Shown here: positions 24,215-27,785 of the stretch, one piece after another | Layout of the letters: each line of letters opens with the position of its first letter | How positions within the stretch are numbered: the first letter of the stretch is position 1 | Assembly: GCA_012512805.1 (NCBI GenBank) | Contig: JAAZDN010000079.1 | Span: 1-36,109, forward strand | Origin: Erysipelothrix sp. | GTDB taxonomy: Bacteria > Bacillota_I > Bacilli_A > Erysipelotrichales > Erysipelotrichaceae | DNA: 36,109 bases | Direction: 5' to 3' | Made by a program: the position numbers and the translations under genes | The notes under the pieces: generated by a model | Databases searched by the model: none | What the model saw: the letters and a program-made list of their open reading frames with translations, nothing else | Told to the model about the DNA's origin: nothing

Positions 24215-25228
24215 TTATTTCTCCTTCAATGCTTGAATCGCATCCGCTTTGACACGTTGAAATCCAGCATTTAAATCTTCTTTACTTAATTGTATATATG
24301 CTTCAGTTGGATACGGACGCCCGCGTTCAACCTTATCGGCAATATATATGAGTTTTGCTAAAGGTGCATCACTTGTTCCTGTTGTATGATGCATAATTGC
24401 ATCGACGATTGCTTCATTTTCAATTTTAAACTGATGCTTCGCAGCATAGGCTCCTGTAAACTGATGATAGACCTTTGGATGATAGTGAAGATGTTCATTG
24501 TAGTAGTGTTTCATAATGTCCATTTGTCTATCGCTATGATCTTCCTTTGTAATATCATGTAAAATTGCTGCAACATACACATCGGTCGGATCGAGTCCAA
24601 CTGCTTCATTGATCTCTAGTGCCACATCCACAACACGCAAGACATGATCAGCACGGTTTTTTGATAGAGACTTTCTAAGGATCGCTTCTAAGTATAGGTG
24701 GTGTTTAAAAATATAGTCTATAACCTTTGAATCGACATATTTAAACTGTCCACTTCTGACATCACTACTTGAGCCTTCAAATTGAAGATCAAGTAAGCGA
24801 TCTTCATCTCTTAGTGATAGTAAGGTTTCATTTCGACTCAGGACAATAAAACTTAACTTATCCATTAAGGTCTTACTCTCATACCAGTTTGGCAAACTCA
24901 CATAACTGTCTGCTCCCATAATCCATTTAAACTGTTGATTTGGATATTGTTTTTCAAGTGCTTCAATTGTTTTTAAGGTATAGGATGGAGTATCTAGATC
25001 CTTCTCAATCGTGCACACCTTGAGTTTTTCATAAGGTGCAACCGCAATCTCTATCATCGCAATTCTATCGTCTATTGAGGCATAGTGTTCATCCTTAAGC
25101 GGTTGATCCTTTGCGACAACATACCAGACTTCATCTAGTTTTTCATAGTCTAAGGCCGCTAAGCCAATCTTAACATGGGCACTTGTGATGGGATCAAAAC
25201 TCCCTCCAAAAAGTCCAATTGTACTCAT
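24215..25228 (-). CDS. nadD: Fused nicotinate-nucleotide adenylyltransferase (NadD) - YqeK HD-domain protein
   Basis: 337 aa; N-terminal GLFGGSFDPITSAHVKIGLAAL, MGADSYVSLPNW, SSSDVRSG; C-terminal HVLRVVDVALEIN, AAILHDITKEDH, HHTTGTSDAPLAKLIYIADKVERGRPYP. Confidence 0.93.
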   Translation of the reverse strand: MSTIGLFGGSFDPITSAHVKIGLAALDYEKLDEVWYVVAKDQPLKDEHYASIDDRIAMIEIAVAPYEKLKVCTIEKDLDTPSYTLKTIEALEKQYPNQQFKWIMGADSYVSLPNWYESKTLMDKLSFIVLSRNETLLSLRDEDRLLDLQFEGSSSDVRSGQFKYVDSKVIDYIFKHHLYLEAILRKSLSKNRADHVLRVVDVALEINEAVGLDPTDVYVAAILHDITKEDHSDRQMDIMKHYYNEHLHYHPKVYHQFTGAYAAKHQFKIENEAIVDAIMHHTTGTSDAPLAKLIYIADKVERGRPYPTEAYIQLSKEDLNAGFQRVKADAIQALKEK

Positions 25229-25518: not shown

Positions 25519-26558
25519 ATAAGTGCCTTTCTAATAAGTACCGCAACCTTCTCATTACTCATGATTGCGACATTCTTAATTCCTTTTTTCACATTTACAA
25601 AGCCAAGTCCATTGATCACAATATCAAAGTTATCTTTTCCAATTGGCATTTGTTTTATGAACTTATGTTCACCATGGGTTTTAATATTTGCTTCGTCAAC
25701 ACTTTCGCGTGCCCATTGTTTCTCAGCATTTGCAATTGATGTGCGATGAATTTTAAGACGGTCATTAACGTAGAATATAACCGATGTTTTACTTTTAACT
25801 TCAAATTGGATTTGAATTAATCCTTCAATTGTAAAGCTTGTATCACGTTCTAATTGAAAGACCTTTTGAACAATCTTTTGTGGTACAACAGCCTTTAAAT
25901 CTTCATCATCAACATATACTTGTAAGTTGTCATCACGGATAAGTCCTGGTGTATCGTATAAGGTATACTCGTCCATATCAATCGCAATCAGATCAAGGGT
26001 TGTTCCTGGATATTTGGAAATGGTAATGTTACTGTTCGCAAGTGTATTGATTAATGATGACTTTCCAGCATTAGCCTGCCCCATAATAATAACATCACGA
26101 TCATTTCGGTAATAGTCAATAACTTCTAAAACATTTTCAAAGCCATCACGACCATGATTTCCTGTAAACAAGATTTCTTTAACACTAATACCATAAAATT
26201 TTAGGCGTGATTGAACAAACTGTAGTAGTTTTTGATTTCCCATCGAAGCCGGTAGTAAGTCACGTTTTGTTCCAATTAAAATAATATCTTTATCAAGTAA
26301 ATGACGGTTTAAGCCATCAATAATATTACTGTCAAAATCAAAGAGGTCTACGACCCATAAGATAAGACGGTCATTCTCATTTACCGCATTAAGAATATCA
26401 AAGTTATCAAAATCATTTTTATATGACTTCACTAAATCATTGTAGTTATTAAGTCGAAAACAACGCTGACAAAGGTCATTTTCAATTTTGGGAGTATATC
26501 CTGGATCATCTTGATGTTGATCTTGAAGAACAATTCCACATCCATTACATTTTTTCAT
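25515..26558 (-). CDS. yqeH: Ribosome biogenesis GTPase YqeH
   Basis: 347 aa; N-terminal CNGCGIVLQ...CQRCF zinc finger, GTKRDLLP, GQANAGKSSLINTL, TLYDTPGL. Confidence 0.94.
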   Translation of the reverse strand: MKKCNGCGIVLQDQHQDDPGYTPKIENDLCQRCFRLNNYNDLVKSYKNDFDNFDILNAVNENDRLILWVVDLFDFDSNIIDGLNRHLLDKDIILIGTKRDLLPASMGNQKLLQFVQSRLKFYGISVKEILFTGNHGRDGFENVLEVIDYYRNDRDVIIMGQANAGKSSLINTLANSNITISKYPGTTLDLIAIDMDEYTLYDTPGLIRDDNLQVYVDDEDLKAVVPQKIVQKVFQLERDTSFTIEGLIQIQFEVKSKTSVIFYVNDRLKIHRTSIANAEKQWARESVDEANIKTHGEHKFIKQMPIGKDNFDIVINGLGFVNVKKGIKNVAIMSNEKVAVLIRKALI

Positions 26559-27066
26559 TTGGCCAAAGCCCTCTTTTCTTTAATAGTTTCATGACAACAT
26601 TTTCAATGTGTCGATTAATTTTTGTAAATATCAAATCTTTTTGAACAATAGGTTCTGTTAAGATTACATCAATATTTTGGCGTTTTGCTCCCCATACATC
26701 AGTCATGACCTGATCACCAAGTGCAATCATTTCTGATTTTTTAATATGTGGATAGTCTTTGAATATTTGGTTGTATGTTTTTGCTAAAGGCTTAAGTGCC
26801 ATTGGATATGCCTTGAAGTTCAATGGTTCATTAAAACGTTGCACGCGATCCTCAGTATTATTACTCACAAGGATTACTTCTAATCTCGCAGCATTGAGTG
26901 CACGTAAAAAAGCTTCTGCCTTATCACTGACATCTGCTTCATCATGAGCAACTAGTGTATTATCAATATCACATATGACTAATTTTTTATTTAAGGTCTT
27001 TAATTTTTCAATATTTACGTCATTAAAATGACGGTCTACATAGTCTGGTTGAAACTTCTTAAGCAT
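26545..27066 (-). CDS. yqeG: YqeG family HAD-type phosphatase
   Basis: 173 aa; VICDIDNTLVAHDE, VSNNTEDRV, MIALGDQVMTDVWGAKR. Confidence 0.93.
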   Translation of the reverse strand: MLKKFQPDYVDRHFNDVNIEKLKTLNKKLVICDIDNTLVAHDEADVSDKAEAFLRALNAARLEVILVSNNTEDRVQRFNEPLNFKAYPMALKPLAKTYNQIFKDYPHIKKSEMIALGDQVMTDVWGAKRQNIDVILTEPIVQKDLIFTKINRHIENVVMKLLKKRGLWPNEKM

Positions 27067-27083
27067 TTTATCACCGTAACTAT

Positions 27084-27092
27084 TATATCATA
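27084..27092 (-). promoter_or_regulatory. Extended -10 promoter for yqeG
   Basis: Minus strand ATTATGATATAATAGTTACGGTGATAAAATG: TGATATAAT (TGn-TATAAT) just upstream of the yqeG start. Confidence 0.6.
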
Positions 27093-27128: not shown

Positions 27129-27155
27129 AAAAAAAGCTCACGATTACTCGCGAGC
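27129..27155 (-). terminator. Intrinsic terminator
   Basis: Minus strand GCTCGCGA GTAA TCGTGAGC T7 (8-bp stem with one G-U). Confidence 0.88.
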
Positions 27156-27204
27156 CAACCAAGGATTTTTTTTTGGGGGGGAGTAAGCATCCTTGCATAC
27201 TTAC
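27129..27204 (-). ncRNA. Candidate orphan small RNA, about 75 nt, with 5' pseudoknot and 3' intrinsic terminator
   Basis: Minus strand GTAAGTATGCAAGGATGCTTACTCCCCCCCAAAAAAAAATCCTTGGTTGGCTCGCGAGTAATCGTGAGCTTTTTTT. Promoter TTGATT-16-TATAAT (27238-27211) places +1 at about 27204. Confidence 0.62.
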
Positions 27205-27210
27205 ATTATT

Positions 27211-27238
27211 ATTATAACTTAATTTTATATTAAATCAA
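27211..27238 (-). promoter_or_regulatory. Promoter upstream of the candidate small RNA
   Basis: Minus strand TTGATT (27238-27233) - 16 nt - TATAAT (27216-27211). Confidence 0.62.
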
Positions 27239-27257: not shown

Positions 27258-27785
27258 TTATTTTTTATTAAGTAACTGGCCTAATTGCCTACTATACTTG
27301 TGATAGATGAGACCGCCAAGTCCAACACAGGCTATAAATTGACCGATAAATATCGTCATAAAGTCAAAGAGATACACTCCAAGATAAAATTCATTAAAGA
27401 GAACGAGTGAGAAGATGATTGGAAGTCCAATTGCATTAATAATGACGGGCATCATTAAGGAAACAATGGGAAGTTTTATCTTAAACATACGGATGTTTCT
27501 AAACATGTATGCTAAAATACTTGAAAAAAGTGTAAAGAGTGTTCCAAAGACAATATCGATGGCACCAAAACCATTGACCATCAGGAGTACACCCATTGTA
27601 TTGGTAATTAAACATCCGAGTGTCAGTCCATAAATACCATCAACACTTAAAAGTGCAGTAATAATTAAGGCTTCCGCAATTCTCACTTGAATTGGACCAA
27701 AGGCCATGAACTGAAAAGCCATACTTACTATAAAGTAAATTGCCGCAATCATTGCGATATTAGTAATTCGATACGATTTTTTCAT
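27258..27785 (-). CDS. queT: QueT family queuosine-precursor transporter
   Basis: 175 aa; MAFQFMAFGPIQVRIAEALIITALLSVDGIYGLTLGCLITN, six hydrophobic segments. Confidence 0.88.
   Translation of the reverse strand: MKKSYRITNIAMIAAIYFIVSMAFQFMAFGPIQVRIAEALIITALLSVDGIYGLTLGCLITNTMGVLLMVNGFGAIDIVFGTLFTLFSSILAYMFRNIRMFKIKLPIVSLMMPVIINAIGLPIIFSLVLFNEFYLGVYLFDFMTIFIGQFIACVGLGGLIYHKYSRQLGQLLNKK

Follow-up and report, generated by a model that had tools for sequence, protein, structure and literature searches.

The locus between queT and yqeG

In the window (the whole stretch of Erysipelothrix sp. DNA that was analysed, 36,109 nucleotides long), the interval between queT and yqeG carries the elements of a small, minus-strand transcription unit. 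Downstream of the interval, yqeG is followed by yqeH. The features of the locus are listed below in the direction of transcription.

27258 to 27785, minus strand: queT (queuosine precursor transporter), the upstream neighbour (Pfam PF06177, E 2e-27)
27233 to 27238, minus strand: -35 hexamer TTGATT (sequence and scan)
27211 to 27216, minus strand: -10 hexamer TATAAT (sequence and scan)
27129 to 27204, minus strand: predicted small RNA transcript of about 76 nt, running from the base of P1, where the +1 is predicted, to the end of the terminator U-tract
27197 to 27204, minus strand: 5′ strand of P1, GUAAGUAU (MFE fold)
27191 to 27195, minus strand: 5′ strand of P2 of the putative pseudoknot, CAAGG, inside the P1 loop (invariant in four of four homologues; complementarity exceeds that of shuffles)
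27183 to 27190, minus strand: 3′ strand of P1, AUGCUUAC (MFE fold; CUUAC invariant in four of four homologues)
27175 to 27181, minus strand: C7 tract of loop 3, the proposed target-binding seed (C6-C7 in four of four homologues)
27166 to 27174, minus strand: A9 tract of loop 3, beside the P1/P2 junction (sequence; A5-A6 in homologues)
27160 to 27164, minus strand: 3′ strand of P2 of the putative pseudoknot, CCUUG (invariant in four of four homologues)
27135 to 27156, minus strand: intrinsic terminator stem-loop, GC-rich, with nine pairs and a GUAA loop (terminator scan)
27129 to 27135, minus strand: terminator U-tract, U7 (sequence)
27082 to 27090, minus strand: separate extended -10 promoter of yqeG, TGATATAAT (sequence; the -10 itself spans 27087 to 27082)
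26545 to 27066, minus strand: yqeG (HAD-IIIA phosphatase), the downstream neighbour (TIGR01668, above cut-off)

Every element of the compact unit that the initial annotation had described between positions 27238 and 27129 is present in the sequence. Specifically, the -35 and -10 hexamers are separated by 16 nt, and the predicted +1 at position 27204 coincides with the first base of the 5′ hairpin, as had been claimed. The promoter and terminator assigned to the RNA are likewise evident both by sequence and by scan. Promoter-like matches overall are no commoner in a 1.5-kb scan than in shuffles, and the promoter of the RNA is the top-scoring match (10 of 12). Two terminators, including that of the RNA, are found in 1.5 kb, where 0.6 would be expected. 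The predicted RNA (about 77 nt) has an MFE of -24 kcal/mol (z = -3.9), a value matched by none of 200 shuffles, and the folds of the three homologues described below yield z = -4.7, -3.2 and -5.3. We infer that the unit is transcribed. In the window, the terminator scan makes no call in the stretch from queT to the RNA, and thus queT transcripts probably end at the terminator of the small RNA.

Elsewhere in the window, a 337-aa open reading frame (24215 to 25228) looks like a fusion of NadD with an HD domain of the YqeK type. Both of the other genomes from the genus contain open reading frames of similar length (337 and 341 aa).

Conservation of the RNA amid changing neighbours

The element in the window genome (G000) recurs in the genus's other two genomes (G001 and G002), where it was identified by DNA search and by a covariance model built from three sequences. 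The same model located a copy in a second genus of the family (G192; E 6e-8), and a later model for phylum-wide searching was built from all four sequences. In each copy, a -35/-10 pair with a 16-nt spacer lies 5-7 nt ahead of UGUAAG or UGUAGG. The TTG-type -35 recurs in G002, G001 and G192, and the -10 elements of the homologues read TATTAT, TATGAT and TATGAT. All four copies share the promoter, P1, CAAGG, a C6-7 run, CCUUG and a 3′ terminator-like hairpin, whose U-tract is weaker in G192. The run of A nucleotides after the C-tract is A9 in the window copy and A5-A6 in the homologues. The initial annotation had looked to relatives for retention of promoter, stems and terminator, and this is what the comparison reveals. 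The homologues are nearly letter-for-letter alike across four species, a measure of conservation drawn from only four sequences, three of which come from draft assemblies of one genus.

The known distribution of the RNA is narrow. An order-wide scan of 316 genomes produced no further convincing homologue, and the window's own genome yields no second copy, its best other match (in C82) reading as coding sequence. An exact-pattern scan of genome contigs found matches only in two known Erysipelothrix-labelled (metagenome) records and none in viral contigs. Searches of plasmids returned nothing meaningful, nor did those of phages, where two matches cover less than half of the query at E 3. Relatives of G192 searched with permissive filters gave nothing beyond chance, and, within the family, no divergent copies were found downstream of 29 queT genes or upstream of 27 further yqeG genes. 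Outside one other Bacilli genome (G377) that is considered below, the extra matches of the phylum-wide model search seem to be coding sequence or to reflect simple composition. Rfam assigns no family to the window, G002, G192 or G377 loci at gathering or permissive thresholds, in keeping with the original view that this RNA is undescribed.

The genes that surround the RNA differ among the four loci. Upstream, queT is present in three (the window genome, G002 and G192; Pfam QueT), whereas in G001 this position is taken by a TetR gene and queT is about 12 kb off on the same contig. Downstream, yqeG is also present in three (the window genome, G001 and G002), whereas in G192 a convergent MFS gene is found there, no co-directional gene follows the RNA, and yqeG lies elsewhere. 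Promoter, core and terminator are kept while both neighbours change, which argues that the RNA is a gene of its own. Judged by sequence only, it is a free-standing gene with its own promoter and terminator, as is characteristic of the C-rich small RNAs (sRNAs) of Firmicutes, and is independent of either neighbour rather than a leader. The stand-alone status first proposed for the window copy thus extends to its homologues.

The interval of about 12 kb that separates queT from the RNA in G001 (C28, 4332 to 16072) holds genes for a branched-chain amino-acid transporter, a CoA transferase, a hydrolase and TetR. The two are adjacent in G000 and G002.

Two cis-type explanations can be weighed against this arrangement. 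The element might be a leader or attenuator of yqeG-yqeH that acts by regulated read-through of the terminator, as the location of yqeG directly downstream in the genus's three genomes could suggest. However, the extended -10 of yqeG (TATGnTATAATnG) is conserved ahead of this gene in G002 and G001 as well, such that yqeG has its own promoter element downstream of the terminator in three of the three copies that adjoin it, as the initial annotation had noted for the window. Moreover, no pseudoknot pairing overlaps the terminator, and the G192 copy does not precede yqeG or any other co-directional gene. We therefore regard a leader function as very unlikely, and the same three observations speak against the earlier suggestion that a ligand-binding pseudoknot controls termination. 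The extended -10 of yqeG has no clear -35 partner in the three genomes of the genus.

Alternatively, the element might be nothing other than the 3′ untranslated region of queT with its terminator, in which case the inner promoter would be unused or the short RNA would be an inert by-product. The absence of any terminator call after queT and ahead of the RNA in the window is consistent with this explanation. We nevertheless consider it improbable, because the conservation is far above the needs of a bare terminator, all four species retain the promoter, and the RNA persists in G001 away from queT.

A putative H-type pseudoknot

The initial annotation paired GUAAG with CUUAC to form stem 1. This hairpin is indeed present, but the stem is longer than was proposed, with the best-supported P1 comprising 8 bp in every copy (GUAAGUAU/AUGCUUAC in the window). 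The P1 loop holds CAAGG in every copy, and CCUUG is located 3′ of the C/A tract in every copy. Pairing between these segments would form the core of P2, which extends to 5, 6, 6 and 7 bp in the four copies. The helix between loop and tail is thus available in four of four copies with workable loop lengths (1-3 nt for L1, 0-1 nt for L2 and 14-18 nt for L3), and so the H-type topology recurs in all homologues with textbook geometry. The exact stems first drawn do require correction. The 8-bp P1 uses the AU of AAGGAU, and therefore P2 is CAAGG/CCUUG with an L1 of 1 nt in the window, rather than AAGGAU/AUCCUU with an L1 of UAUGC; the latter helix cannot fully form alongside P1.

Sequence variation among the homologues bears unevenly on the two helices. 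The innermost pair of P1 (pair 8) is A-U, A-U, U-A or G-C across the four copies, a clear double change that falls just inside the stem originally proposed. Elsewhere in P1, A-U alternates with G-U at one pair and U-A with U-G at another. Within GUAAG/CUUAC itself, only the one-sided change of A-U to G-U is seen, and there are no compensatory changes in P2, whose five core pairs never vary in the four copies. Thus, the compensatory changes that had been sought in both stems are found in P1 but not at the pairs specified. The sixth pair of P2 is U-A in three copies and a G/G mismatch in the window copy. Because P2 is invariant, covariation cannot prove this helix, and its support comes instead from conservation and geometry. 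Among tail shuffles, 2.2% match the P2 complementarity of the window copy and about 0.5% do so for each of the remaining three (0.4-2.2% overall), although the four copies are not independent of one another. When pseudoknots are disallowed, the MFE folds of the G001, G002 and G192 RNAs close part of the 5′ strand of P2 into P1. Overall, the comparative data make it likely that the pseudoknot forms.

The terminator stem behaves differently, with compensatory changes at seven of its nine pairs among homologues. Given that this stem drifts yet remains paired while the core is unchanged, the core appears to be fixed for its letters and not for pairing alone. Such a constraint could reflect a free-standing pseudoknot that functions as an aptamer or titrating RNA, with the near-invariant 45-nt core as the binding site for either a metabolite or a protein that binds RNA. 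The core elements in question (the 3′ strand of P1, CAAGG, C6-7, A5 and CCUUG) are sequence-fixed while the terminator varies freely, and a gene for a queuosine-precursor transporter adjoins the RNA at three of four loci. Furthermore, the topology of P1, P2 and an A-rich L3 equals that of class-I preQ1 riboswitches, which are likewise H-type pseudoknots.

However, the RNA has no sense-strand match to the Rfam model for preQ1 class-I riboswitches (RF00522), to which it therefore cannot be assigned, or to any other Rfam aptamer. A weak PreQ1 line appears on the opposite strand, far below the cut-off. Unlike a preQ1 class-I riboswitch, the RNA sits after queT rather than before it and has no expression platform, and the G192 copy has no downstream gene to control. 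We also know of no counterpart to the C7 tract in known preQ1 pockets. For these reasons, a purely ligand- or protein-binding role seems unlikely. A hybrid arrangement can also be envisioned in which a trans-acting sRNA is gated by a ligand, such that the core, including the C7A5-9 loop, binds a metabolite (perhaps a queuosine precursor, given the adjacent queT) or an RNA-binding protein, and the state of the ligand gates attack of the C-tract on mRNAs. We view this more elaborate scheme as a long shot.

A proposed C-rich seed and comparison with known RNAs

The C6-7 run is predicted to be unpaired and is kept across four genomes of two genera. It is flanked by ACUUACA and A5 and has the appearance of a seed, and we infer, in agreement with the initial annotation, that it is an anti-Shine-Dalgarno seed. 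Base pairing of this type is an established mode of action for Firmicute sRNAs (LhrC, PMC4132741; csRNAs, PMC3091779; review, PMC8383071). For example, the UCCC motifs of LhrC bind Shine-Dalgarno regions (PMC4132741), and RNAIII, RsaE, SprD and FsrA are cited in that work as RNAs whose C-rich motifs pair with Shine-Dalgarno sequences.

Given these C-rich motifs and the precedents of RydC and RsaI/RsaOG discussed below, we favour, with moderate confidence, a free-standing regulatory RNA of about 75 nt in which a pseudoknot is combined with a C-run that blocks G-rich Shine-Dalgarno regions in trans. Transcription would run from a sigma-A-type promoter, positioned at the queT 3′ end, to the RNA's own terminator. 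The 5′ half would fold as a compact H-type pseudoknot (P1 of 8 bp, P2 of 5-7 bp and an L3 of UC6-7A5-9), with the A-run probably in the minor groove of P1 close to the junction. The C-run would remain exposed and, perhaps together with the neighbouring ACUUACA strand of P1, would pair with G-rich Shine-Dalgarno regions and block translation. The pseudoknot may shield the 5′ end and display the seed, in the manner of RydC. If true, the union of a compact pseudoknot and a C-rich anti-Shine-Dalgarno seed within about 75 nt would make this RNA a very small model of how structure presents an sRNA seed.

Ribosome-binding sites of G6-G7 are located 4-9 nt ahead of the start codon in several genes of G000, G001, G002 and G192. 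These candidate partners of the C7 tract include SDR, glyoxalase-like, Cof-type HAD, AraC-like, MFS and ArsR-like genes. The genes behind the G6 runs differ between genomes, and hence no conserved target emerges; among those checked, no gene has a G6-G7 site in more than one species. One further candidate, GGGGGGATG in C109, was rejected as a target site because it lies inside an msrA-like coding sequence. A search of the open-access literature yielded neither RNA-seq for the genus nor any study of small RNAs from these bacteria. A small RNA gene that is this well conserved, with a clearly defined predicted fold and a conspicuous putative seed, offers a concrete entry point for the group.

The phylum-wide search with the four-sequence model also returned two matches in G377 (E 3.5e-5 and 6e-5), both of which correspond to the 5′ ends of sRNA-like genes. 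In order, these genes carry a GUAAG...CUUAC hairpin, C7-UAAAA and a terminator whose loop is C-rich. They lack CAAGG/CCUUG, and one has a tandem neighbour. One of the G377 sRNAs gives a sub-threshold csRNA match of 26 bits, the sole csRNA score among the loci tested. The resemblance could reflect either descent or convergence. The hairpin-C-tract start that the window RNA has in common with csRNA-like genes in G377 suggests a wider, unrecognised group of RNAs.

The minus strand of C1 in G377 holds at least three csRNA/LhrC-like sRNA genes, two of them in tandem (L121, 5300 to 5660; L122, 5950 to 6080). Each has a short 5′ hairpin of the GUAAG/CUUAC type, a C-rich tract and a C5-C7 terminator loop, and none matches an Rfam family at threshold.

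We propose that the window RNA should be filed as a new family of the same functional kind as the C-rich Firmicute sRNAs, with the putative pseudoknot as its distinguishing feature. It resembles the LhrC family of Listeria in being a short Firmicute sRNA with a hairpin, an unpaired C-rich stretch and a terminator. However, LhrC occurs in five copies, carries three UCCC motifs, of which two lie in loops, and has no described pseudoknot, whereas the window RNA has one C7 tract, one copy, a putative pseudoknot and no Rfam match. Membership in the LhrC family was rejected, as the single C-tract is in loop 3 and the GUAA terminator loop contains no CCC.

The csRNAs of Streptococcus comprise a 5′ hairpin followed directly by a conserved [A/C]UCCUAAA[A/C] and then a terminator (PMC3091779). 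The window RNA similarly has a hairpin followed by A-UC6-7-A5, but compared with the csRNA motif it lacks a U and has a longer C run, and there is no separate anti-AUG/anti-SD stretch. The csRNA model (RF02379) gives no line at E ≤ 10 for the window, G002 or G192 copies, and this assignment was likewise rejected. The CiaR direct repeat has the consensus TTTAAG-N5-TTTAAG. The promoter of the window RNA contains a near-repeat with two mismatches, which is not conserved (4-5 mismatches in the three homologues), and it was not accepted as a CiaR site.

Precedents that pair a pseudoknot with an exposed seed come from two other sRNAs. RsaI/RsaOG of Staphylococcus has a predicted pseudoknot (PMC5826253) and an unpaired CU-rich seed (PMC8383071), and is thus a Firmicute sRNA with both of the features proposed for the window RNA. 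However, it is about 145-150 nt long and CcpA-regulated, and the two share no sequence or Rfam match. In RydC of Salmonella and E. coli, the pseudoknot presents the seed and stabilises the sRNA (PMC4337610). Although RydC belongs to another phylum, carries its seed at the 5′ end, is bound by Hfq and has no detected sequence relation to the window RNA, the window RNA would share with it a very short pseudoknot design, a seed that is exposed and a 3′ end rich in U.
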